Shown in pieces: positions 13,929-48,968 of a stretch of 64,000 nucleotides of DNA (its first letter is position 1; the number at the start of each line of letters is the position of its first letter). The notes under the pieces were generated by a model, which saw only the letters and a program-made list of their open reading frames with translations, did no database searches and had not been told where the DNA came from. Origin of the DNA: Tetradesmus obliquus (lineage: Eukaryota; Chlorophyta; Chlorophyceae; Sphaeropleales; Scenedesmaceae); contig CP126196.1 in the NCBI GenBank assembly GCA_030272155.1, positions 1,674,001 through 1,738,000 on the forward strand. The letters run 5' to 3'. Made by a program: the position numbers and the translations under genes.

Positions 13929-13997
<69 letters not shown>

Positions 13998-14333: not shown

Positions 14334-14394
<61 letters not shown>

Positions 14395-29149: not shown

Positions 29150-29226
<77 letters not shown>

Positions 29227-29972: not shown

Positions 29973-32578
29973 GTTCAGGGATCTGCCCAGGCCGACTACG
30001 TGCCCCCTCTTATCCCCCTTGAGCCTTACGGTGGGTTGCAAGGCATGACTAGCGTAATCAGCATCGTGCATGTGCTGTCTGGCACATGCAGCTGTCACAA
30101 AGTTTGGGGTCCACAGCAGCCCTGCGAACAAAGCCCAGATAGCTGCCTAGTTCTTCTGGATGATCAGCTCGAACACAAAGCAGCACACGTCATGTTCTCC
30201 TTGCAAGTGCAGCCAGCTGCTGTGAAATCGCTGTCAATGCATGCTGGCAGTGTTTGGAGAAGCCAGCTGGTGCAGCGGTTCAATGCATCACCGCAGCCCT
30301 CTTGCATCACTCACCACTCCCACACCATATTTATCGAATTCGCACCTGTCTCATCAGCTACAGCCTGGCTGCCACACCTACTGCTCATCATCCTGCTGCT
30401 GCCATTGCCATTCATCCTTGTGCCTACTTCCTTGTGCTGCCATTGCTGCCTGCCACACCTGCTGTACGCTGCCACCTTATTGTCCTGCCATTTGCTACAT
30501 CCCACCAGGCAAGCCCAGCAACCCCTTTGCGCCCCCTGAGCTGCTGCCGCGGCTGTGCCCCCCTGTGCACATCTGGGGCTGCTCCTACTCCAAGGAAGGC
30601 AGCTTCAGTGGCGCTGACGTCACCCCCCTGCCAGGCAGGCAGCCTGTGGGTGACAGCGAAGTTCACACTGTGAACAACTGGGGTGACTTCGTGCAGGTGG
30701 GCTGCTGCTCAGCAGTGCTGCTGCTGCTGCTGGTGGTGTTGGTGTACAGCAGAGATGCGCCCTTTGAAGCAGCACAGGGCAGTGCTGCTTCTCATTGCAC
30801 AGCTGGTTGTTTTGGCTGCTGCCTCCGCTGCAGCTCCACCAACCTGCACCAACCACATGTACACACGGGTGCTCAAGGCCAGCAAGATATTTCAACATGC
30901 ACAGCCTGCTGAGCTGGTGCCGCTGCACACTGCCGTCCACTGCTGAACCTGCTGCTGCTGCTGCTGCTGCTGCTGCATCTCCCTCATCAACCTGCACACA
31001 CCACAGGCGCTCAAGGCTGGCAAGATCTACATCAACGTGCACAGCCTCAAGTTCCCTCCAGGCCTCATCAGGGGCAACCTGGTGCCAGCTGGTGGCAGCA
31101 GCACAGCCAGCAGCGGCACCAGCTCCCCTGCACCCTCGTCTTCAACCGCAGGAACTTCACAGTCACGCTCACCTTCACCATCAAGTTCCTCAGGAAGTTC
31201 ACCCTCTCCTGCAAGCAGTGTGAGCTCAGCCGAAGATGAGGGTGAGGGTGAGTCACCCTCACCCAGCCCTGCAGCAGGAGGTGCTAGCAGCAGCAGCAGC
31301 ACCAGCAGTGGCACAGCTGCCGGCACGACCTCACCATCACCCAGCCCTGCTGCAGGAAGTGCCAGCAGCACTGCTAACAGCGGTGCAGCTGCCAGCGGTG
31401 CAACTGGCAGTGTGGCTGTAACTGTCTCACCCTCACCAAGCCCTGCTGAGGGAGGTGCTAGCAGCACCAGCAGCAGCGGTGCAACTGCCAGCGATTCAGC
31501 TGGCAGCACAACCTCACCGTCACCAAGCCCTGCTGCAGCAGGTGCCAGCAGCACTGCTAGCAGCGGTGCAGCTGCCAGCGGCTCGATTGCGGCTTCATCA
31601 CCCTCACCCAGCCCTGCCGCAGGAGGTGCCAACAGCACCAGCAGTGCTTTAACTGCCAGCACCACCTCACCCTCACCAAGCCCTGCTGCAGGAGGTGCTA
31701 GCAGCAGCAGCAGCGGCGCATTAACCGCCAGCACCACCTCACCCTCTCCCAGCCCTGCTGCAGGAGGCTCCAGCAGCGGCAGCACCGGCGGCACCACTGC
31801 CAGCGGCAGTACCAGCAGCGGTACAACTGGCAGCGGCGCAACTGCCAGCACCACCTCACCTTCACCAAGCCCTGCTGCAGGCGGTGCTAGCAGCAGCGGA
31901 GCCACGAGTGGAGGTGCAGCATTCAGCGGTGGTGCAGCCAACACAACCGGCACTAGCGGTGCTACAGGCGGCACCACTGGCTCAACTGGCACGAGCGGCG
32001 GCAGTGGCACAACTGCTGGTACAGCTGGCAGCAGCGGCACGTCTGGTGCACTCACATCATCTGGAACTGGAGCTGGTACCAGCGGCACAACTGGTGGAGC
32101 AACCACATCTGGTGGTGCAGCTGGCATCAGCGGCACATCAGGTGGTGCTACCAGTGGTGCAAACACAGCTGGTGCAGCTGGCAGCAGCGGCTCGACTGGT
32201 GGCAACACCGGAAGCACCTCTGGTGCAGCCGGCACTGGCGGCGCTGCTGGCAACAGCGGCAGCACTGGTGCTGGTGCTACGTCTGGTGCTGGGACCAATG
32301 CTGGCGGTGCAACTCTCGCCGGCACAGGCACCTCAGGCAACACCACCACCACTGCTGGCACTACAGGCCGTGCCGCTGCGTCTGGCAGTACCGGCGCTGG
32401 CACGACTGGTGGCAGCGGCACAACTGGTGGTGCAACTGGTGGTGCTGGTGGTGGTGCATCCAATGCCACGTCTACTGCAGGTGCCAGTGCAGGCCCTAGC
32501 GGCAGCGGCACCAGCACTGAGACAGACACTGAGGGTGATGCAGAGGCTGGTGCAGGCGCAACTGCGCAGACCGGCTGA
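28434..32578 (+). CDS. Secreted CHRD-domain protein with Ser-Pro repeats, 5 exons
   Basis: Exons 28434-28647, 29229-29359, 29979-30030, 30509-30696 and 31007-32578 join in phase to 718 residues. Residues 1-22 form a signal peptide (LLCLLVALLACSATQATA). The next exons match the CHRD fold: GTFEMTLDEGGQKASWKL, then DVPHYIASHLHS, then a closing KAGKIYINVHS...PGLIRGNL, equivalent to the 'YVNVHT..PGGEIRGQ' end of CHRD domains. The domain carries a Pro/Cys-containing insert (PPELLPRLCPPVHIWGC). The last exon encodes about 500 residues of low complexity: eight copies of [ST]SPSPSPA separated by Gly/Ala/Ser/Thr, then a TSG/TGG-rich tail. Alternating Ser-Pro is typical of O-glycosylated, hydroxyproline-rich algal wall proteins, so an extracellular matrix location is likely. 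Ligand and function are unknown. Confidence 0.85.
29154..29225 (+). repeat. (CTG)24 tract immediately before an acceptor
   Basis: Twenty-four pure CTG units run straight into CAG|GCGTGCC, the acceptor of exon 2 of the CHRD gene. A shorter (CTG)n at 29942-29971 stands in the same relation to exon 3. Confidence 0.92.
30850..30920 (+). repeat. Upstream copy of the last CHRD-gene exon start
   Basis: GTGCTCAAGGCCAGCAAGAT..AACATGCACAGCCT (about 30867-30905) copies the true exon 5 start GCGCTCAAGGCTGGCAAGAT..AACGTGCACAGCCT at 31007. Here no AG immediately precedes the copy, so it is unlikely to be spliced. Confidence 0.75.
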
Positions 32579-34235: not shown

Positions 34236-37200
34236 CTAGCTCGCCACACCCACTGCTGCTGCTGCTGGCGCTCCTGCGGTGAAGTGGATGTGCGGCGTGC
34301 CCGGCCCTGCTGCTGCTGCTGCTGCCGGCGCGTCTGCTGCTGCTGCGCTGCTGATCTGCAGGCCTTCTAGGTTGAGGCTGCGCAGCAGGTAGGGCAGGTT
34401 GTCGCGCAGCAGCTGCGCCTCGTCAAATGGCAGCTTCACATCAAGCACCTGCGGCAGGCGGATACACATCAGCAGCACAGACACATGATGCATGTGCTTC
34501 ATAAGACCCCCGATACGATTTGTTTGTGCTGACCTCCGACATTAGTACTTGGTCAGCACCCTGAGGCATACGGCGCATCAATGCGGTCGCAGGTGCCTGC
34601 ATGTTGCGCTCAAGGAGCAGTCACAGCAGCACACATATGAGAGCTGAGCATGCGCGGATGGACGTCGCTCCACTACATCAATTTCAGCTGCGCGCGCTGC
34701 GCACCTGCTTGCCGCCCTTGAGCGCCTCGTCCATCTTGTACCACACAGCCCCCACCCTTTGCAGATTATTGTCATAGTGACTATTTGTGACACATAACAC
34801 ATAACAAGCAACATGTAACAAAACAAATGGCGACTGCGCACCTGTTTGCCGCCCTTGAGCGCCTCGTCCATCTTGTAGCGTGCAAAGGGCATGGCCAGCT
34901 GCTTCAGCTGCTTCTCATTCAGGTCGGCATCGCCGGCAGCCTTGACAGCGTCCAGCACCGCCGGCACCGTGTCAGCAGCAAAGCTGTTGGCGGCAGCATC
35001 GTACTTGGCCTGCAACAAAAAGGTGCGAGTGCAGGCACGCGAGCGATGAGTTGCGACTTCGCGCGTGAGCATGTACAACCACAAGAGGTTGAAAGCACTC
35101 TCACGTGCACAGCGTTCAGCACCGCCAACACCATGTCAGCAGCAAAGCTATTGGCGGCAGCGTCATGCTTGGCCTGCAGTGCAATGCAGTTTGCAGGCGA
35201 GGGAGCGGAGTTGGCGTGCAAACAAGCCCGAAGAACACAAGACGAGCTGAGAGAGCAGCCACAGGTGCTGAAGAAAGCAGGAGGCGCGCTTGCTAAACAG
35301 ATGTACACACCCGCTCTCCGTTCCAAAGACAGCGGCGTGTGTGGCTGTTGAGAAACGTGTTCAAATGCTGCAGCACCAGCACAGCACAGCCCAGCCAGCC
35401 TGGTCAATGCTCAGCTGATGGCCGCCACACTTGGAAGAGCCCAGCAACATATGCACGGCGCATGCACGCACCTGATTTCTGCTGCAGCACTTGCGGACAC
35501 AAATAACACAGCGACATAGATGGGGCGTACAGCATGCGAGAGGAAACCGTATTGCAAGTGGAGACCATACCCACCTTCACATGGCCGTCTCTCACCTGCA
35601 GTGCGTCAGCACAACGGACAGGACGTAACACACATAACACACAACCACAAGGAAGTAACACATATGACGCATGTAACATGTTATAACATGCCTCACCTGC
35701 AGCGCGTGCAGCACGGCTTCCTGCCAACCCACGAAGCGCTCGCTGACCCACACCTGCCCGTGTGTGATCTTGGGTGGCGGCGGCTCGTCTGCCTTCTTCT
35801 TCTTGGGCGGCGCCTCAGCCTTGGCAATGAGCTTGCGCATGGAGGGGATCATGTCTGCGGCAGGTGCAGATGATGAAGTGAGACTGAAAGAAAAGAACTT
35901 TTGAAAGCACCGGAAGAAGTTGTTTTACAATGTTGACGCTGCAACTGTGTACGGTAAGTGGGTGGACGTGGACAGGTGCAGGCGGGCACTTACGGATGCG
36001 CTGTCTGACCGACCACGACAGTCACCGCATGGCGAGTGCCTACATTCCCTGACTCCAACTCCTCCTCAAAACACAAATCTCCAAGGACCAACACACATAC
36101 CTATGAACAGGACACCAGCATTGAAAGCGCACAGGCTTAGAAGTACACTCACCCTCAATGTACTGCGCTGCCCGCTGCATGATGAAGTCCGGCTCTGCTG
36201 CTGTGGGCCACCCCGCGCGCAGCACGCTGCCCTGCCGCGTCAGCAGCACGCTCCACACGTGCTCGCTGGTGTGCGGCGTGATGGGGGCCAGCAGCAGGCA
36301 GGACAGCTCCATGTAGCGCAGAGCTAGGCCGCGGTTCATGCCCTCTGGGCCGCACGCAAACCTGTTGAACAGCAGGCAGACGAGCAGCAGAGGCGTGTGA
36401 AGCAGTGCAGGCAGGACAGCTGCATGCAGCGCAGCGTTAGGCCGCGGTTCATGCCCTCTTGGCCGCACGCAAACCTGTTGAACAGCAGGCAGACAAACAG
36501 CCGAGGCGTGTGAAGCAGTGCAGGCAGGACAGCTGCATGTGGTGCAGCACCAGGCCGCGGTTCATGCCCTCTGGGCCGCACGCAAACCTGTTTGAGAGCA
36601 AGCAGACAAGCAAGCAGCGAAGGCGTGTGAAGCAGTGCAGGCAGGATAGTTGTATGTAGCGCAGCGTCAGGCCGCGGTTCATGCCCTCAGGACCGCACGC
36701 AAACCTGTGGCCAGGCAGACAAAACAGAAAGGAAGAGGGGTCAAATAGGTGTCTTCAGGATGTACAGGCAGACAGCAGAATCGGCGGCAGGGGGTGCACA
36801 CAGTGGGTTGCACCTCTGCACACGCGGCGGCGGCGCTTTAAGAAATGACACACAAGCCCACTCATTGTCGAACCTAAACCTGCAAAGCTGCTTGTTTGAG
36901 CTGATCTTCGTTGGCCAAAGGCAGTGTTGAAACTCGGCACACACGCGCCCTCACACACATGCTCTGGCCCGTGCTGCAAATAACAACAAAATGCCGCACC
37001 TGTACACGTCGCGTGCGTTGCCCAGGTCATAGCCCGCACACTTGAGGGCCTCCCTGAACAGCAGCTTGTCGTATGCCTCCTTTGACCTGAAGACCGCGAT
37101 GTTGAGCTCGTTCTCAAACACGCGGTCGTGCATGGTGGCGGGGGGACCATCGCGCAGGCCTGGATGATTACATGCACGCAACGCAGCACAGCAGAGGAAG

Positions 37201-38375
37201 GCAGCAAGACATGGTGAGTTTTGAGAACAAAAGAGCGCCCTTTTTGCAGAGCTCGATGCAAGCAGCGACAAACACAACAACCAAATGACATAGCGCAGCC
37301 AAAGACCACGACAGCGAGAGCTGTGACACGCATAAGCAACATGGCATGCACATACAGCCAACAAGCACACATGATACACACCAATTCGTCATCAGAAACA
37401 CCTGAGCCACGCACCTGCCTCAGGCCCAAGCATCTTCTCCATCAAGGCCAGCATCCTGGTCCGCCACAGTTGCCATGCCAACAGCCAAACCCAGACATAC
37501 CGCATGTGTGCCAAACCCAGCAAGTATGGCACCCACAGCTGCAAGTGATGTGTGTGTGCCGGCCCAATGCTGGCACACACTGTCTGATGTCCATCAGCCT
37601 GGGCAGGCCAGCGATGCTGTGCAGCTGCTGTGTGGGCATGCCCCTGGCAATAATCATCAAGAACAACTAAACCACGCACCCGCCTCAGGCCCCAGCATCT
37701 CCTCCATCCAGGCCAGCTCCTTGGTCAGCCTCAGAATGGCTGCGTTGGCGGTGGACGTCTCAAAGTTGGCATCGTCCATGCCGTCACCAGCGTCAGCCAG
37801 CGCCCAGCGCATCGCATCTGCGCTGTACTCGGCAATGGCCTGAGCCGATACATTTGGCAGGCGAGCAGGCACAACATTGTGTGAGTGTGCGAGTGTTGAG
37901 TGCGCATTTGTGTAGACGATGCAAGACGCATGCCGACACCAGCGTCAGCCAGCGTCGATCCGCATCGCATCTGCGCTATACACCGCGACGGCAAAGCACG
38001 AAGCAGGCAGGCAGGCAACCATGCACAATGGGCTTGATTAAGATGGTATACAGCTGTATAGAGGTCAACATGCTGAAACCGCACTGCAACAATTACACAC
38101 GCCAGACCGTAGCTGCCGTCAGAGCTGCAAAACAGTAGCCGCAGCACGAAAGCAGCAGCATCTACCACCACACGCCCGCAAACATATCAACACATCCGCA
38201 CCTCTGACAGCGTCTTGAAGTTGCCGGTGCTCTTGCTCATCTTCTCGCTGTTGAGCAGCAGGTGGCCGTTGCAGCGGAAGCCTTTTGGGTTGTTCTCGCC
38301 GCCTGGCCAGATGGCGGTGTGGTTGTACAGAGAGAAGGTGAGGTGGTTCTGGATCAGGTCCTTGCCTGCAGGGGT

Positions 38376-38438
<63 letters not shown>

Positions 38439-39247
38439 GGTTTGTCATACGTTGCATGCAGCAGTTGTTTATGAAAAGGTGAGGTGGTTCCAAATCGTCC
38501 TCCAACAAATAATGTATGTGACTGCCTTTTTTGCTTGTGCCTTGTCCCCTCTGCGCACCTGACACGCGCAGGTTGGAGGGGTACCAGAACTCCAACATGC
38601 AGGCAGTGTACTGAACATTGCCACCATTGAGAGGATGGATGTGAGTGCCTGTTGTGCCTGTGCCTTATCCCCTCTGCGCACCTGACACGCGCAGGTCGAA
38701 GGGGTACCAGAACTCAAACTCAGCGCGCATCTTGCGCAGAGTGTCCTCGGGGATGGCACAGCCAGGCGGGTATGGCCTGCACACAGGTTGGGATGCAGAC
38801 GAACGGGTCAAAGGCGAAGCCAAGAAGACGGATGTACGCAAGCCAATGCTTGGCAGCGAGGTGGCAGCCCGCAGTGCCGCCCGCCCGTCAGGCAGCCACA
38901 GCTGTGCACACACCCAGGAACGTATTACTGTAACAATCCCATAACTTCCCTAAACAGCAGGGTTTAAAAAGTGTTACATTGTTACATATCGCTCACCCCT
39001 GCAGGAAGAGGTAGTCCCACACCTCGTTGGTGAGGTGCTCCGGCTTAATTTCTCCGATGCTCTGGCCGTACATGTCGCCATTCTGTTACGTGGCGGAGTG
39101 AAATGTACAGAGCAGGGGCAGGGAGCAGGGCTGTCAGCATGCGTGCTGTGTTGCTGCACGATCACAGCACCCGTGATGCACCAGACTTGTTACAATGCTC
39201 TGGCCGTACATGTCGCCATTCTGTGTGGTGGTCAGCACCATGAAAGC

Positions 39248-39295
<48 letters not shown>

Positions 39296-42200
39296 GCGGC
39301 GGCGGCAGCAGCGGATACAAGGGTGTCAGCATGCATGCTGTTGACATTACGAAGGACTTGCTGCAATGAAACATTGCTGGCGAGAGCCAAAGCTGGTGCC
39401 AAACAAGCACCACACAGAACGAGTCAAGCACTGCTGGGGTTGCAGGGCGTGCAGGCGGGTGTGGATTTGTATGTTTGCTGTGAGCATGTGGCCCCCTCAA
39501 AGTGGCGCGGACCGCGACAGGCAGTGCATGCGCGCCTTGGTATGAGGCTGTGCTGTGTGCAGGCGCTAGTCACGCGCCGACCAGGGGGCAGGCTGGCGCG
39601 CCGGCTTAATGCGCTGCAGGATTGTGCATCATATGCAGGGCAGTGGCTGTCAAGCAAGCAAGCGCAGTGCTTGCCGGTCTCATCAAAAGTGTCCCTCTTG
39701 CTCCTCGCGGGTTAGTACAGCACATCACCACAGAAGGCGTGCTCTCTGGCATAGTGAAAGACTTGGCATGCAAGAACACCGGTTGTGTACACTGCCATCA
39801 CCCCACATATCTGCAGGTAGTGTGCCACGGTGTAGTAGGCCATGTAGATGGTGGAGTGACCCAAACACACAATGGCACGATACAAGTTGACATCAAAGTA
39901 ATCAATACATAGCCCGCCCCTCCCACCTGCAGGTAGTGTGCCACGGTGTAGTAAGCCATGTAGATGGTGGAGTCGCTGAGCGACTCGATGAGGTACTGCT
40001 CGTCCCAGGGCAGCCGCGTGCCCAGCCCAAAGCTGCGGCTGCACGCCCACTGCTGCAGCCAGCCTGCGGCGCAATAGGCAGACGGGTCGACAGATGACGG
40101 ATTGAAATCAGCGAGGTGGCATAAAAGCAAATTGCAGAAGGGGTGGGGGCCCACTGCTGCGGCCAGCCTGCGGGTGCATGCGAGTAAGGCAGCGGGTGAG
40201 TTAAGCTGGGAGCAGCAAGCATGGCGATATACGTGCGCAAACCTTATGCGATACGAGCACAAGTGATGGCAGCATACGTGCAGAGGGAAGGCAGCACCAA
40301 CTGGTCAAGAGCAGCTACCAATGCCCTTGGTATCGGCTCACGACCAGCTGACACTGCTTTTTCTCAGCTGCAGCCGTATCCGACCATAACCATGCCTGCT
40401 GACCAGAACCATGCCTGCTGTAATAACAAACTAAACATGGCACGCTGTGACGATGTGGGGCCGACAGGTTGCTGCAGGCATCATGCAGCACAGCAGTGCG
40501 AAGGATCGGTGCACTGCTGCCGTAGCCAGCAGCCGTTAAGATCAGCCACGCGCTCTCGCACAAACCCTTAGACAGCCGCGCACTGCACACGCAGCGGCCA
40601 CCTTACACGAAGTGCTTGTTTGCTCACACCCAACACGCTGCACAGCCTGATGCAGCCAGCAGTCTGCAGCACCATGTATGTCCATGTACTTCCCCTGAGT
40701 ATACCACAAGGTGTACTGTATACGTTTACCCTGATCCCAACATAATTCTGCTTGATTCTTCAAGACCCAAAAATAACAACAAAAATAACGTATTATTGCA
40801 TATTGCGCTCACCCAGGCAGTGCCTGAAGCCGTTCTTGGCCTCCTCACTGTAGCACTCCATGGCCTCCAGGGCTGCCAGCGTGGCAGCCTGCCACGCAGC
40901 CTCACCGTACACCAGGTACCACTGGTCGGTCAGCGCCACCACACACTCGTCACCGCTGCGGGACATGACCTGTGACAACAACACAGATATTGACAGGGAT
41001 AACAGCACGCGGCACGCATGTGAGCAGGTTGTCCAACATCGTGCATCATCAGGGGTACCACTGGTCGGTCAGCGCCACCACGCACTCGTCACCGCTGCGT
41101 GACATGACCTGCAAAACATGATGATCAAAGGCATGCGGCATGCACGTCAGCCAACCGACACATTGTACAAGGAATAAGGGAGTCGGAGCAATGATTGGTC
41201 AGCGCCACCACGCATTCGTCACCGCTATGGCTCGTTACATGTACACAACACAAAGATTGAAGGTATGTAGCATGCGCGTGAGCAGGTTGTGTGGTCTGCA
41301 GGAAGACAGGGATGTGCTGGCCTACAGCAGCGCATGGCCATGCGCCAGCATGGCCTCCTTGATCATGGAGGCTGCTGCTGCTGCTGCCAAACCAGTGACA
41401 CAGCCACATGCAGCCGGCTCACCATCTTCTCAGGCTCGCTGTAGGGCAGTGCGTGGCCGTCCGCCATCATGGCCTCCTTGATGATGGGCTTCACCTCGCT
41501 GACCTTGCGCCCCGCATAGGGGCCCACCTTCATCACGCCATCAGTGAAGCCCTGCAGCAAACAAACAGAAAGGAAAGAGATGAGAGAATTGCGTGGTGTC
41601 GGTGAGGGCGTTGAGGGCAAGCAGGGCGTGGTTGTGTGCGGAGGTCTTGTGCCGCAGCAAGGCACAGATGTGTGTTTGGTGGGAGGCGGCAGGAGTGTGC
41701 AGGGTGGTACAGCTCGTCAAGCAATGGGCGTTGCCGTGTGACTGATGTTGCACTTGCTTAGAAGTCTACTGTGTTGTGTTGCTGTGTGATGTGTGACACA
41801 TACAGGGCAAGGCTGGCAGTGCAGGGGCCAGCCCAGCCAGACAAGTGCCGCTGGGGGGTGATGTGCGCAGAACCATAGTCACGCGCCGACCACGGGGTAG
41901 GCTGGCGCGCCGGCTTAATTGGCTGCGCTGGAGTCGTGCTGTGCATGCTTTGCATGGCGTGCAAAACAGTGTATGCGGAGTATATTATGCAGTACAGTAT
42001 ATATATGCAGGTACACAAGAGAGCAGCTGGATGCACCTGCTGGAGGTTGCCATGCGCTGTGCATGCTTCATGTGCATGCTTCATGTGCTGCAGCGCCGAG
42101 TCATGACAGCAGCTGCATGTGGGTGCAAGCAGCGATCGCAACAGTGGCATGTAGTGGCACATGAACGTGACAAATGGATGGTGGTTTGTTTCGTGTAAGA

Positions 42201-45200
42201 GCTCCCTGCAAGACAGCGCGAGCAGGTGCCAAGCGCACTGCCAGGCAGGCTGGGGTAGCTGCAGATCTTTTTTGACTGATCACCACACAGACACTGTGCT
42301 AGTGCTGCGTACCCAGCCGACCAGCATCCGCGCTGTGAGTAGAGAGCTTACTCGCCTTAAACAGCAAGCCATCTGACACACACAGCAGCATGCATGCAGC
42401 ACAGGCCGCTGCAAGCAACAGCGCAGGCGCCTGCGGCTTTGGAAGCTGCAACAGCCAAGCACCCAGGGCGCTGCTACTGCTGAAGCCTATGTGTGTGAGC
42501 GTGTGGCCCCCTCAAAGTAGTGCGGGCCGCAACAGGCAGTGCATGCGCGCCTTGGTATGAGGCTGTGCTGTGTGCAGGCGCGAGTCACGCGCCGACCAGG
42601 GGGCAGGCTGGCGCGCCGGCTTAATGCGCTGCAGGACTGTGCAATATCTATCATCGACTGCCAGCAGTGCAGGCGATCTAGGGCGTGCAAAATGCCTTGG
42701 TCATTTCTCAAGGTGGGAAATGACCAAGGCATTTTGCACGCGCTAAATACACTTGAGGCATAGGGGATGAGGAGCTTGCCTGTGCCTGCATGGGCTTGGC
42801 TTCGCCCATGGTCATGTTGGTCCTATTAGAATCAGGGTCAGTGTGTAATCACACACAACGGTGATGATCATCAACACTGTTGTGCCTCACCTTGAGGTAC
42901 ACCATGCCCTTGGCCTCCGCCAGCTTTGCTGTGTCGTTCTGGCTCTGCACCTTGAGCTGCTCGCACACCACCTGCAGCAGCAGCAGCAGCAGCACGAGGG
43001 TCAGGGGTGGTGGCAGCTGGGACAGTGGATGCTGCTTGCTAAACATAAGTGCAAGTGCGCCGCCACAAGCATGTTGAGCAGCATGGCTCAACATAATGTC
43101 ATCGTCCACGCACCATGGCGGCTGTGTTTCATGGCGCATGTTACGCACCTTTCAATGAACTTAAGTGCCGTGCTATGTTCGAGCCAAACCCTAAAACACA
43201 AGGTTTAGCCGCACCTGTGCCGCGCAGTCCCCGAAGCTGGCAATATAGAAGGGCCACATGCAGTGCTGTTATCTACCAAACCTCAACATCACAAACCACA
43301 AACACAGGGTTTAGCCGCACCTGTGCCGCGCAGTCGCCGAAGCCCGGGATGTCGATGATCGGCAGCACCTCGAAGGGCATCACCCACTCGTCAGCGATGC
43401 CGTACTTCTCACGCAGCTTGGGCTTCTTCTTCAGGTCCTGCAAGCAGACGAGGAAGGGGCGGCAGCAGCGGTTAGTAATTTGGTATTTGTAGCATCGGTG
43501 TAAATAATTACGCAGCTTCGTCTTCTTCTTCAGGCCCTGCAAACACATGAGGAGGGCGCGGCAGCAGCGGTTGGTATTTTGGTATTAGTAAATCCGACAA
43601 CCTGTAAGCCGGGTCTGATAATTGCGCAGCTTGGTTTTCTTCCTCAGGTCCTGCAGGGAGTGGAAAGGTGGGTGCAGAAGCAAGCAGTTGTCGACCCGGC
43701 TATTGTTAGCAGCACGGCTTGGGCTTTGATCAGGTGCTGCAGGGTTGGCACGAAAAGGCCGGCGACTTCAACCCGGGATCGTGACATAAACAGCACGTGT
43801 TGCGACTGGGTGGTTGTGGTGCAGAGCAGAGCTGCTGCCACAGTCGAGTACCCTCCACGTAGCGCTGCGCCGGTGTGTGAGGTGGTGGGCTACCTGGCCG
43901 GCTTGCTAGGTGTGGCAATGGCAGGGAACAGCCTTCCGCACACGTCCTAAACATAAGTTCAACGATACATGTGGATATGAGCACGGCTCTTTTAAAAAGG
44001 GAAAACAAGGTCAAACAAGGTCAAAGTGTGAGCCGAACAACTCACCAGCAGCGCGGTGTAGTCGTCGGGGCTGTCGCTGGGCACGCTTGTCACGATGCCC
44101 GTGCCCTTGTTGGTCAGGATGGTCAGCAGCGGCAGCACGTAGATGCGCTCATGCGGGCAGTTGGGCGCTGTCAGCGGCAGGCCCATCAGGTCCTGCCCGG
44201 TCAGCTCCAGCAGGCACTCCGGCTCGCCACGCTTGGGCGTGCGCTCCTGCAGGAATATATAGAAAAATGAAGTTGCTTGAGATGTTTCAAGGATGTTTTG
44301 GTGCATCTGCAAGGTGAGTTTGCGGCAAACACACCTCACGGACTACACCAGAGCGCGGTCAAACTGTTCCATAGGGAACAAAGTGTTTAGTGGGCGACTG
44401 GCAGTGGCAGGAACGGACAACAATTAGAGTACACAGAGTGGGGATGTGGTCCGGCGATATAGTGGCTGGTTGCAGTGGATGCTGCGACCTGCCGTAGGTT
44501 TGGACTCCGGTTGTCAGCCGCACACACGCAACAGCTGCCAAGCCCCGAAAGACCTGGCAGCAGCTGCATGCGTGATTTGGTCTAGGCAGCGGAAGTAAGG
44601 GGCTGCACCATGGGAAAGGCGCGCACCAGGCTTTGTAGCGGCCAGAGAATTGTTGAAACAGCTGAATCCATGAACAGCAAGCATGATAGCATGACCGCGC
44701 CATCACGCTTGCATGGTTTGGGGGGAAGTCCCAGCTCACATCCTGTTTGTGTCGCAATGCTGTTCCAACCGTGACAAACATGCCACAGGCACCATGTCGG
44801 ACATCCCGCATGCTCCTACTCGCAGGAAAACTCACATCACAGGTACAAGTACAACCAAACACCAGCCAATAACACACTCAAAAGGTCATGTGTGCCCACA
44901 CACCACACACCACGCACCTGGTACGACAGGTTGAGGGCGCTGCGGTACGTCATCACGTACACCTCGCCATTCAGGCCCTTGTAGGCCCCGTACTTGCCCT
45001 CAGGCAGCGCCCAGCAGTTGGTCTGGCCGTACATCGTCTCAGGCCGCAGCGTGGCAGCCATGAGGAACACACCGCCCTCTGCTGCCTCACCCAGCTCAGC
45101 CAGCTTGCCTGCAAGGTGGTATTAGACAGCCAGCAGCCGCAGCATCAATCAGTAGCTGTAGATTCTCCAAGCGCAGCGTGGCAGCCATGAGGAACACACC

Positions 45201-47412
45201 GCCCTCTGCTGCCTCACCCAGCTCAGCCAGCTTGCCTGCAGAAGACCATCAGGACAGCCAGCAGCAGCAGATGCGGTGTAAGATAATGTCTGCGTTGCCA
45301 TGAGCTAAGTGGCAAGAACGTGTTACCCGCACCATCTTGCTCAGGGGCAGTCACCTAACGTAACATCTCAGAAGCGTGTTACAAAACACAGAGATAACAC
45401 AAAACCTAACGCTCACCTTTGAGCTCCAGCACGCGCATCTTGACCAGCGTGTACTCCTGCGGCCCCACGCCCTCGCCGCTGGCTCTGTCGTGGTCTGCGC
45501 AGGGCTGGCCGTCCAGGGGCGAGAACACCGCGTAGCGCTTGTCCTTGACCACCTTGCCCTGCAGCGATTTGAGGTTGATGGTATTGTTGAGCAAGATGTT
45601 ATGGTTTATAACAGGGTGTCGCAAAGCGGGGCGTGGAGTACAGAGCAAGGTGAACTGCGGCACATGAGACACACGGTCAGCTGCCACGGCATGATTAGAA
45701 ACGCACAAGCTGCAGGGTCCAAAACTGCTGGCGCACACAGGAGTGGCAGTACGCATTCATGTCTTTGTGGTGATTGGATGCGTAAAATCAAAACTTATCC
45801 CCCGCCCACCTGGCGCTTCAGGGTCCAGAACTGCCAGCGCACGAATGAGTCGTAGTAGGGGTTCATGTCTGTGGTGATGAAGGAGCGGCGCCAGTCCACA
45901 CCGCAGCCCATGGCCCGCAGGTCACGCTCAGCCAGCGGCGGGAAGTACTGCAGCCAGTGCGCGGAGTCCCTGCCAAATGAAGACAACAGCGGCAGAGGAC
46001 ATAGGTAAATTGTCAGCAAGCATGGAGGTGTCATGCTCTGTGGCGTGCGGGCCGCGCTGCGCAAGGGGAGGGAAGTACTGCAGCAGAGTGACAACAAAGT
46101 GACAACAAAAGCAGCAGATATGGCAATGTCAGCAGCATAGAGATGTCGAGCGCTGTGGTGTACGGGCTTCACTGCGCAGGCGGCAGGAGATACATATGCC
46201 AGCAATGCTGGACACGTCGTCCTGCCAGCGCATTTGATTGCGGAAGGCTGTACTCTGGTCAAACTTTGAATAAGGACGAATGTATACGGTTGAGTGCGCA
46301 CCTGGTCTGCGAGATGTCCTCTGGTGGGATGAGGTCAAACGCTGGCCAAAATGCTGGTCAACCATACCACATGGACTGCGGGATGTCCACAGGCCAGTGG
46401 AGGCCAAACACTGATCAAACTGCTGTTCAAGCACGTCACCTCAACTAATGGCTGTCTAGAGGCGGAATGAGGTCAAACACTAGTCAACCGCTGGTCAACT
46501 ATGTCACCTGAACTGCGGGATGTCCTCTGGCGGGATGCCGCTCTTCATGAGGATCTCCCACTGCGTGGCGCCCACACCCTTCTTGCTCTGCGCCTTGCTC
46601 TTCTTGCCGCTGAACTTGGTGGGGTCGGCGGGGCCCGATGCCTCCTGCAAATATAGTAGCCAGGAGTATAAAAGGCAACAGCAGCAACAGCAACATCAGT
46701 CAGGGTAGAAAGCTTGCAGGTCATAACATTGCAAAATGTGGCCTTGCCGCTGAACGTGGTGGCATCTGAAGCTGCAGCATGTTGCACCAAACACAAGGAG
46801 TCTGCAATGCATGACGCGGCTTTCTGATAGCATTCTCGCACGCTGCGTCATATATGCTGCAAGCGCACCGGCAGCTGTGTTCTGAGACTGCCGCTGATTA
46901 CAGAATCCTACAGAGACAGGCCCATATGCAGCAGCAGCAGGCTGGCTGGAACCGCTAGTCCTGCAAGCAGTGTGCACACTCACCCCTGCTGCGGGTGCTG
47001 CTGCTGCTGCCTGCTCCTCCTCATCGTCTGTGGGGAACTTGGGTGGGCAGCCATACGTGGCCAGCTCACGGTCAAGCTTGTCAGCACATGCCTGCAGGTG
47101 GTTGTGTGTGTTGGACAGCAGCGGAATTTGTGTGGACAGCAGCGGCAGCAGCGCAGATGCGGCAGCCGTACACCAAATTGCAGAATAGTTGTGTATGCAA
47201 CAATGCGAGCATCACCCGAATGAAGCACGGCCGGCACGCGTAATTGAGGAAGTGCTGAATGCAAAGGACATGCAGCAAAGCTCTTGAATTCAAAAAGCAG
47301 CGGCGGCAGCAGCAGCGGGTCCCCTCAGGAGTCGATAAGTCATCAGCGCTGCCTTTGGCAAGCGTTATGTTCTCCAAGGTGAAAAAAAGGTTTGTCATCA
47401 GTGGGGGCCGCG

Positions 47413-47444
<32 letters not shown>

Positions 47445-48968
47445 ACTACATGCCGCATACATTGCTTGCGCGCCGGCAACAATACAAGGGACATGTGCAA
47501 CAAACCAGCAACAAGCCAGGCGCCCTGCCCATTAAGTCTGATGTATCGGCAATCAGCAGTTGCAGCGGCTAGTTTACCTGCCTTGATAGGCATGCCAGTG
47601 CAGTTACCTGCCTTGATAGGCATGCCAGTGCAGTTTACCTGCCTTGATAGGCATGCCAGTGCAGTTTACCTGCCTTGATAGGCATGCCAGTGCAGTTTAC
47701 CTGCCTTGATAGGCATGCCAGTGCAGTTTACCTGCCTTGATAGGCATGCCAGTGCAGTTTACCTGCCTTGATAGGCATGCCAGTGCAGTTTACCTGCCTT
47801 GATAGGCATGCCAGTGCAGTTTACCTGCCTTGATAGGCATGCCAGTGCAGTTTACCTGCCTTGATAGGCATGCCAGTGCAGTTTACCTGCCTTGATAGGC
47901 ATGCCAGTGCAGTTTACCTGCCTTGATAGGCATGCCAGTGCAGTGGAAGCCCTGGCCAAACAGCACGCGCTTGCCACACAGCCGGTGGTAGGCAGACGCA
48001 AACTCCAGCTGCGAGGCGCAAACAGACACGCCATGTGCAGCAGCAGGCAAGTCAGGGAACGGTGCACACGTAACCAGCGCAGGAGATTATCGCATCTGCT
48101 TAGTCCCAAAGACACAGCATCAAGCTGCCGGCTGGGTAAGGTAGCGCATCCCGTTGCGGTGTCAGCTGCTACGACCCACTGCGAGTGAGAGGCCGTAAGT
48201 TCAATCCCTGCAACGTCAGGCACTTGGTGGCGTTTGCTGCTAATGCTTGACTGGAAACACAATGAGGATCATGCGCCCAAGCCTTGCCAGCTCGCTGACC
48301 CCTGCTCTGCTGCCACTGCTGCTGCTGGTGTGCTGCTGCTGCTGCTGCCGCCTGGCCGCACCTTGGACAGAGAGAAGGCGTGTCCCAGGTGCAGCAAGCC
48401 GTTCATGTAGGGGTAGGGGAAGTTGCCAAAGAACTTGCCCTCTGGGCACGCCTGGCCTGCAGCAGAGCAGCAGCAGCGCCAGCTCAGCAACAGCTGGGAC
48501 GCTTAACCCAGACAAATTGCTCCACAAACATGCAATGGAACAATGTATCATGCAAGCCGGGATCATGGTGTTGCCATGTGCTCCTTAACACAGCATATGT
48601 TTCGCAGAATGGACAAGGCGTGGAGATGTACTGCCACTTGCGCAGCAGCACAGCACTGCTGTTGCTGCTCTACTGATCACAATCGCAGCAGATCAGGCAG
48701 CAGCAGCGCCTCAGCAGCGCAGCTCGTCAATGTGGTGTACCTTCGGCTGCCGGCTCGGCATAAAACGCTTTGTCTTCCTCCCATTTCTGCTGTGCAGCCG
48801 CCTGGATACGCAGCAGCAGGTCCCTGCGGGCAAAGCTGCCCTCCTTCGCCTACAACGGCAACCGACATTACATTCAAGCAGTGCAAATTCTACGATGATG
48901 AATCATTAGGTAAGACTGGTCATGCTACACACCTCAGTCGCCTCGCTGGGCGCAGGTGTGCTGCTCAT
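34236..48968 (-). CDS. LARS1: Leucine--tRNA ligase, cytosolic type, 24 exons
   Basis: Charges tRNA-Leu in the cytosol. Exons, 5' to 3' on the minus strand: 48968-48933, 48849-48741, 48456-48362, 48008-47922, 47091-46984, 46644-46508, 45969-45810, 45558-45417, 45108-44918, 44246-44046, 43437-43321, 42971-42891, 41551-41423, 40969-40813, 40063-39927, 39082-38997, 38776-38682, 38365-38202, 37839-37680, 37159-37000, 36361-36153, 35854-35697, 35009-34842, 34448-34236. All phases agree, giving 1099 residues. Class I signatures: HLGH at 71-74 (after NFPYPYMNG) and KMSKS at 731-735. The CP1 editing domain shows TLRPETM at 311-317 and [15 protein letters not shown] at 403-417. [13 protein letters not shown] matches eukaryotic and archaeal-type LeuRS, so this is not the organelle enzyme. 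Exon 4 must end with a GC donor to keep frame. The C-terminal tail is Ala-rich and ends VGVAS. Confidence 0.95.
34698..35180 (-). repeat. Echoes of both edges of LeuRS exon 23
   Basis: Downstream of exon 23, 34738-34698 repeats its end ([18 protein letters not shown]). Upstream, about 35180-35100 repeats its start after a CTGCAG acceptor ([22 protein letters not shown] against the true [22 protein letters not shown]). Both keep the splice site. Confidence 0.88.
36362..36712 (-). repeat. Three extra tandem copies of the LeuRS exon 21 3' splice junction
   Basis: The junction AG|GTTTGCGTGCGG, followed by coding for [12 protein letters not shown], occurs with exon starts at 36704, 36587, 36474 and 36361, spaced 117, 113 and 113 bp. 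Only the last, most 3' copy continues into the full exon. Most of the copies read through as an open but non-homologous frame (...[11 protein letters not shown]...). Acceptor strength differs: the copy at 36704 lacks CAACAG before the junction. Confidence 0.92.
37408..37995 (-). repeat. Echoes of both edges of LeuRS exon 19
   Basis: 37462-37408 copies the end of exon 19 (LGPEA with GTGCGTGG donor) inside intron 19. About 37995-37930 copies part of its start (YSADAMR...LADAGVG) inside intron 18. Each differs from the exon by several substitutions. Confidence 0.8.
38378..38437 (-). repeat. (CTG)20 in sense, before LeuRS exon 18
   Basis: Reads (CAG)20 on the plus strand but CTG in the LeuRS RNA. 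It is followed by TTACCCCTGCAG|, the acceptor of exon 18 (38365). Same orientation rule as in the plus-strand genes. Confidence 0.9.
39480..39628. repeat. Dispersed intronic repeat, copy A (149 bp)
   Basis: Starts TGAGC.TGTGGCCCCCTCAAA and ends GCGCTGCAGGA.TGTGCA. A second full copy lies at 42496-42643 and a partial copy (AGTCACGCGCCGACCA to GCGCCGGCTTAAT) at 41876-41920. All three are in introns of LeuRS. Copies A and B are about 93 percent alike, with no visible terminal repeats. Lies in LeuRS intron 15. Confidence 0.8.
41052..41236 (-). repeat. Two echoes of the LeuRS exon 14 start
   Basis: 41110-41052 (CAG|GTCATGTCACGCAGCGGTGA through GACCAGTGG) and 41236-41196 repeat the start of exon 14 ([17 protein letters not shown]), both upstream of the true exon at 40969. 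A weaker echo of exon 13 is at 41372-41333. Confidence 0.82.
42496..42643. repeat. Dispersed intronic repeat, copy B (148 bp)
   Basis: Second full copy of the 39480-39628 repeat, in LeuRS intron 12 and in the same orientation. It ends about 40 bases before the perfect hairpin at 42683-42741. Confidence 0.8.
42683..42741. ncRNA. Perfect 25-bp inverted repeat (hairpin) in LeuRS intron 12
   Basis: 42683-42707 is the exact reverse complement of 42717-42741, with a 9-nt loop. The arm begins GCGTGCAAAATGCCTTGGTC. A perfect 25-bp stem of this size could be a small-RNA precursor, a very small fold-back element, or a replication scar. I see no sign of independent expression; typing as ncRNA is provisional. 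Confidence 0.35.
43205..43660 (-). repeat. Echoes of both edges of LeuRS exon 11
   Basis: Two upstream copies of the exon start (CAG|G.CCTGA.GAAGAA..C.AAGCTGCG) end at about 43624 and 43509. One downstream copy of the exon end (CTTCGGGGACTGCGCGGCACAG|GTGCGGC) lies at 43240-43205. In the upstream copies the third residue is changed but the acceptor remains. Confidence 0.85.
45177..45240 (-). repeat. Upstream echo of the LeuRS exon 9 start
   Basis: CTGCAG|GCAAGCTGGCTGAGCTGGGT through CTGCCACGCTGCG is an almost perfect copy of the first 64 bases of exon 9 (45108 downward), including its acceptor. Near identity suggests a recent duplication. Confidence 0.9.
47571..47942 (-). repeat. 12 x 31-bp minisatellite made of the LeuRS exon 4 / intron 4 junction
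   Basis: The plus-strand unit CCTTGATAGGCATGCCAGTG plus 11 more bases starts at 47581, 47611, 47642 and then every 31 bp to 47921. In the sense direction each unit contains ACTGGCATGCCTATCAAG|GCAGGTAAAC, the coding end of exon 4 (TGMPIK) plus its 5' splice site. The first unit is the real exon end at 47922; eleven more follow inside intron 4. Units are identical except the last-but-one (47611), which lacks one T. 31 is not a multiple of three, and read-through meets TAA in the second unit. Confidence 0.97.

Follow-up and report, generated by a model that had tools for sequence, protein, structure and literature searches.

The window, a 64,000-nucleotide stretch of the Tetradesmus obliquus genome, lies on contig C6 of an assembly of 104.7 Mb in 17 contigs, and has a GC content of 57%. 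Its minus strand carries a gene for cytosolic leucyl-tRNA synthetase (LeuRS), whose recognised exons, when joined, aligned collinearly with human cytosolic LeuRS at 1017 bits (Table 1). The 19 modelled introns have a mean length of 525 bp (shortest 220 nt), and 18 of them are GT-AG. No second cytosolic LeuRS was found in a genome search, in which all nine matches to a 381-aa stretch of the protein fall in this gene. tRNA and Rfam scans of the window gave no matches. No relative or second assembly was found: a scan of genome contigs returned a single 15-residue match, to a Pararhizobium contig that was rejected as a relative because the match was judged spurious, and a scan of viral contigs returned zero.

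Table 1. Features of the LeuRS gene, in window positions.
Feature	Position	Strand	Basis
Modelled portion of LeuRS gene, 20 exons; gene extends past both ends	36151..48849	-	Alignment and junction search
LeuRS coding exon (third recognised), end ...FHCTGMPIK, holds copy 1	47922..48008	-	Alignment to human cytosolic LeuRS; junction search
31-bp array, 12 copies; unit TGCACTGGCATGCCTATCAAG (21 nt, exon end) + GCAGGTAAAC (10 nt, intron start); copy 11 is 30 nt	47572..47942	-	TRF and copy-by-copy listing
GC of putative donor AAG/GCAGGT	47920..47921	-	Inferred from reading frame
GT of decoy donor CAG/GTAAAC, 4 nt downstream of GC donor; use leads to stop 5 codons past TGMPIK	47916..47917	-	Frame check
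Intron, 830 nt, probably GC-AG, contains copies 2-12	47092..47921	-	Single in-frame GT/GC-AG pair in junction search
LeuRS exon after the array intron, acceptor CTGCAG/GCATGT	46984..47091	-	Alignment and junction search
127-bp repeat, acceptor side; copied exon start identical over 64 nt	45045..45270	-	Self-comparison
99-bp array, acceptor side; two intronic copies of exon start	43411..43655	-	Self-comparison
123-bp repeat, donor side; copied exon end, GT kept	38512..38719	-	Self-comparison
113-bp array, acceptor side; real exon start and three intronic copies, AG kept	36294..36723	-	Self-comparison

The 31-bp array was reported by TRF at 47571-47944 (period 31, 12.1 copies, 99% matches), and the minus strand has exactly 12 occurrences of the 21-mer TGCACTGGCATGCCTATCAAG, which encodes C T G M P I K, from 47942 to 47572. 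Successive copies are spaced by 31 nt ten times and by 30 nt once, the lack of one A in copy 11 being the only difference among them. Copy 1 is exonic and forms the last seven codons of its exon, and the other 11 copies are intronic. The first-pass annotation had described the unit as a LeuRS exon end with its 5' splice site and first intron bases, repeated in 12 copies of which eleven are intronic, and both statements were confirmed, the former by the copy listing and the junction search, the latter by TRF and the exact 21-mer positions. The 21-mer is absent elsewhere in the window and in the other loci fetched (leaving out L001, which is the same place), and a DNA search of the genome with the array gave no match outside this place. 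Such an array is not expected by chance. The exon and intron break points at the duplication junction have ACT in common, a microhomology found by chance at about 5% of random junctions, and this is weak evidence for a duplication junction. That the array is an artefact of assembly is very improbable, given its clean borders and one internal variant, an assembly of this size in so few contigs, and like arrays elsewhere in the genome.

For the junction search, each GT or GC donor between -6 and +9 nt of the exon end was paired with each AG acceptor in the interval that runs from 45 nt upstream to 3 nt downstream of the next-exon anchor. Within this range the frame is kept solely by AAG/GCAGGT ... 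CTGCAG/GCATGT, which reproduces TGMPIK-ACADKL, gap-free in the alignment to human LeuRS. Judged by its reading frame, the array intron is probably GC-AG, and would be the sole such intron among the 19. The first-pass annotation held that each copy presents the same donor; a donor is indeed repeated in each unit, but the sole in-frame donor is a GC, and each unit offers two candidates, GC and GT, 4 nt apart. Among the resulting 24 candidate donors in 12 copies, only the first leads to an open mRNA, and the other 23 (the 22 in copies 2-12, plus the GT of copy 1) lead to stops. Read-through of the intron meets a stop 13 codons past TGMPIK. The earlier argument that a 31-nt unit shifts the frame, that read-through is stopped, and that use of a wrong copy should yield a nonproductive mRNA is thus upheld at the level of frame. 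Because these 23 donors give stops and no second LeuRS copy was found, the first donor must presumably serve. Donors were scored with a small matrix built on 30 donors, drawn from two genes (one of the 30 rows, the first donor of a chaperonin gene on contig C12, is one base off), which gave the GT decoy 5.6 against a median of 10.0; with positions +1/+2 omitted, the median was 6.2, the GC site reaching 3.7 and the GT decoy 1.7. The putative GC donor appears only moderate in context.

In every unit the GT and the GC each follow immediately on an AG, so that CAG/GT and AAG/GC might serve as joined acceptor-donor sites and the intron be removed stepwise. By pyrimidine fraction, a crude measure, the sequence before AAG/GC (0.59) is inside the range of modelled acceptors, but that before CAG/GT (0.47) is below the lowest real acceptor (0.53, median 0.65), and the 31-nt units are shorter than the shortest modelled introns (220 nt in LeuRS, 154 nt in the C12 gene); such recursive splicing is not favoured and seems very improbable. 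Intron gain by AGGT tandem duplication (Rogers model) was rejected: AGGT is present in the unit, yet the sole in-frame acceptor found is outside the array.

The first-pass annotation knew of no described splice-junction minisatellite of this kind, a view contradicted by the human CBS, ABCA7 and IFI6 cases, which are given here as they stand in excerpts of the cited papers. The kind of array is already known, and its build is that of the human CBS-type donor minisatellite, with a unit spanning exon end and 5' splice site and 12 near-identical tandem copies (99%). The CBS VNTR, c.1444_1467+7(16_21), at exon 13-intron 13, has a 31-bp unit of 24 exon and 7 intron bases in 16-21 copies (PMC2630376, PMC1395315). 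Its unit, like that of LeuRS, joins exon end, donor and first intron bases over 31 bp and in many copies, divided 24 + 7 in CBS and 21 + 10 here; it differs in gene and organism, which are unrelated, in its copy number and its standing as a known polymorphism, and the algal LeuRS array carries a putative GC donor. The 25-bp VNTR in ABCA7 intron 18 takes in the donor of exon 18; splicing from the next unit keeps 25 bp and is out of frame, and exon 19 skipping and lower expression go with VNTR length (PMC5954066). It resembles the LeuRS array in starting at an exon donor and in having its next-unit donor out of frame, and differs in that its first two bases are the donor GT, with no exon bases in the stated unit, and in that a link of length to splicing and expression is shown there. 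The IFI6 (6-16) minisatellite supplies several splice donor sites (according to a title cited in PMC2572611), with two downstream repeat units used as donors (PMC4526556); both sets of repeats offer multiple donors, but alternative donors make isoforms in IFI6, whereas the LeuRS copies would give stops. Local duplication carrying splice signals is also seen, again from excerpts (PMC2630376, PMC4974935), in CBS 844_845ins68, a human polymorphism that duplicates an intron-exon junction, the distal site being the one in use (PMC2630376), in potato RdRp, where duplication across an intron-exon boundary made a new intron (PMC4974935), and in fission yeast 24-bp AGGT arrays. In potato and fission yeast the duplication makes a new intron, whereas the LeuRS intron has its own acceptor outside the array.

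Further arrays were sought with TRF in 51 sequences, 346 kb in all: the window plus 50 loci, some of which overlap and most of which were picked for aminoacyl-tRNA synthetase (aaRS) or chaperonin exons. Twelve rows had a period of 20-200 and at least 4.5 copies (two rows being one array reported twice), and the window array has the highest copy number in these 51 sequences. A 33-bp array of 6.5 copies and 100% identity (L037 548-762; C16:4178667-4178881) starts 32 nt into the intron that follows a TCP1-alpha exon, and every unit of it carries ATG/GTGGGTGAA; the identity of the exon is given by phmmer (E 9.9e-12), with a Pfam score under the curated cut-off. A search of the genome for tandem arrays at exon ends, suggested in the first-pass annotation, was run as a scan for three AGGTRMGT donors 10-40 nt apart, with the pattern read backwards as control, and gave 87 + 20 = 107 matches against 24 + 18 = 42 for the control, among the matches listed. 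Many of these are overlapping readings of one array, and six places were read among the matches listed. A 37-bp array of 9.0 copies with 90% matches (L058 209-557, C14) lies on an exon end that Pfam assigns to DUF92 (E 5.7e-11, residues 2-44 of 47). Two others look similar: a 37-bp array of 20.1 copies at 99% (L054 250-991, C9), which follows an open frame with a flanking acceptor, and a 32-bp array of 20.1 copies at 99% (L053 226-867, C6), which lies on an apparent second copy of an exon end. The L054 frame had no Pfam or PDB match, and the L053 exon-like end no Pfam match. A 32-bp array of 3.1 copies (L057) is a plausible candidate donor array. Among the six places read, the scan added the DUF92 exon end and two look-alikes, and the uniqueness implied for the LeuRS array is not supported in view of the TCP1-alpha and DUF92 donor-side arrays and the excess of tripled donors over the control. 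On the acceptor side, a 26-bp array of 5.3 identical copies (100%; L044 3019-3155, C14:1020974-1021110) was observed, by eye, about 157 to 21 nt before an apparent chaperonin acceptor, where it falls in the branch-point and pyrimidine-tract region.

Whether the copies might aid the weak GC donor was considered, since the only GC-AG intron of the 19 modelled is the one with the array and each unit carries CAG/GTAAA, which could form a downstream cluster of U1-binding sites that attracts U1 and improves recognition of the intron. A single intron amounts to one coincidence, however, both comparison arrays with protein-level support (TCP1-alpha and DUF92) follow GT donors, and decoy donors as often compete; we regard such help as quite improbable.

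We consider it reasonably probable that the LeuRS array is a recent donor-bearing (splice-junction) minisatellite, spliced from copy 1 and tolerated. A tandem duplication would have had its break points 21 nt into the exon and 10 nt into the intron; the 31-bp unit would then have grown to 12 copies through slippage or unequal exchange, and this expansion would be recent, or the copies homogenised enough, for a single-base difference to remain among them. Splicing would run from the GC donor of copy 1 to the acceptor 830 nt away, the eleven intronic copies being removed with the intron and tolerated as weak decoys, and mis-splicing to them would lead to premature stops and modest mRNA loss at most. 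Tolerance is favoured because other donor-side minisatellites are present in the same genome, because exon-edge duplication is frequent in the LeuRS gene (see below), and because human arrays of like build are tolerated, as far as excerpts of the sources tell (CBS, PMC2630376; ABCA7, PMC5954066). It is weakened because the putative donor is a GC of moderate context with a GT 4 nt away, and near-neutrality may be wrong because ABCA7 array length tracks lower expression and altered splicing (excerpts of PMC5954066) and a cited title ties the CBS array to reduced activity. The same ABCA7 relation of length to expression and splicing would suit an array that tunes LeuRS output, in which use of a downstream copy produces premature-stop transcripts, these enter decay, and copy number sets their share; the stops given by every donor except the first agree with this, but like arrays are found in unrelated genes, as expected from a mutational habit, and tuning seems unlikely.

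Copying of exon edges was analysed by self-comparison, with arrays defined by an offset of at most 600, a length of at least 30 bp and E at most 1e-4. The modelled LeuRS gene holds 15 tandem arrays, including the 31-bp array, all 15 of which straddle an exon edge, with none intron-only; a rotation null, with exons making up 21% of the span, gave on average 5.4 straddling and 6.8 intron-only (P 0.0026 each). In the chaperonin gene on C12 (C12:1442412-1452418, merged from L030, L039, L036 and L041), which is CCT5-like by reading, all 11 arrays touch exon edges, with 10 straddling an edge and one merged array spanning an exon, and none is intron-only (4.7 expected, P 0.008); in this model the first donor is CGG/GTGAGT and was set one base early in the array test, leaving one exon edge off by a base. 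Four of the 23 repeat pairs of this gene are intron-intron, all within those arrays, and one more pair lies outside the gene. With 26 of 26 tandem arrays touching exon edges in the two modelled genes and none intron-only, scattered tandem duplication was rejected as the whole explanation for both. By our estimate, selection on the exon copy could roughly double the detectable life of a pair, and alone would not yield 26 to 0.

Copies in the adjoining intron were found at 18 of the 38 LeuRS exon edges above the 99th percentile, and at 12 above the maximum, of a null of 342 comparisons of exons with non-adjacent introns. Among the 60 sides of 30 chaperonin exon cores, 23 scored above the 99th percentile and 14 above the 99.9th of a null of 1608 scores, and the copy almost always matched the half of the core closest to it. 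Array coverage had a mean of 28% in 30 chaperonin loci and ran from 0 to 66% in nine aaRS loci; 11 other loci, including two beside the window, had a mean of 8.4%, against 1.4% in block-shuffled sequence. Twenty-four further LeuRS copies were listed, 15 covering the splice site and 9 stopping short of it, with the site intact in all five donors and in 9 of the 10 acceptors. Over 33 copies in the two genes (31-bp array excluded), exon parts are 79-100% identical, and the intron side, scored for 26 of the 33, exceeded the 95th percentile of unrelated intron in 12 and fell short of it in 14; therefore some copies are whole tandem units, and others look exon-bounded. Most repeat offsets lie around 100-150 bp, which places the 31-bp array at the short extreme. 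A full-text search of open-licence literature found no description of this exon-edge pattern. Internal gene duplication as such is reportedly known, from work of Gao and Lynch in 2009.

Differences between copy and exon were counted by codon position 1/2/3, giving 63/53/232 in 53 chaperonin pairs and 22/14/63 in 16 aaRS pairs; one aaRS core that holds a stop (L009:1338036, 1 of 23) was counted in this per-pair tally and left out of the 72-core set used below. LeuRS copies gave 19/13/33, a third-position share of 0.51, which fits silent change in the real exon together with neutral decay. By our own reckoning, copies that left the real exon at different times would reach a share of at most about 0.5. 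When each exon side contributed one copy (45 sides, from 72 cores), the counts were 57/38/152, a third-position share of 0.62 against at most about 0.5 (P 2e-4), and copy against copy, with one pair per side (21 sides), they were 30/29/77, which is far from one third and not significantly above 0.5 (P 0.07); the repeat pairs are mutually related, so these P values are optimistic. At one chaperonin exon on C15 (L022, C15:2658297-2661947, minus-strand gene), the exon end is followed downstream by five intronic copies, in which 40 of 41 differences from the exon are at third positions, as are all changes in the ten copy-copy comparisons. Decayed exon copies are also present. Plain neutral decay fits LeuRS and was rejected for the CCT genes (third-position share 0.67). 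The bias would fit copies in use in transcripts, and also exchange between diverged alleles; repeated budding from the real exon fits LeuRS but does not fit C15, and a haplotype-mixing assembly error fits poorly with regular multi-copy arrays.

It is possible, and we advance it only tentatively, at less than even chances, that the LeuRS array is the short-unit extreme of a genome-wide copying of exon edges and splice sites into adjoining introns, in which duplications are tied to exons and many copies are coding-like, being used in transcripts or derived out of register from diverged functional alleles. Our confidence in this was lowered slightly because of the copy-copy result against 0.5. 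If it is true, the introns of this alga are in good part echoes of its own exons. Why copies are exon-tied and why many change like coding sequence is a question of more worth than the array itself. The array extends a build known from human genes to an apparently unicellular alga, in one genome with several such arrays (6, 9, 12 and about 20 copies), which are natural material for how the spliceosome selects one donor among identical ones; exon-edge tandem copies bear on intron growth and on the origin of new splice sites, and gene predictors applied to such genomes will face many false exon ends.

Elsewhere in the window, a 543-codon open frame at 30947-32578 on the plus strand, with a 518-codon frame opposite, contains tandem repeats whose lengths (183, 87, 72 and 48 bp) are each divisible by three, and is perhaps repetitive coding sequence. 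Many long unbroken CAG/CTG runs occur throughout the window (for example 13930-13997, 14336-14393, 29152-29226 and 38378-38437).
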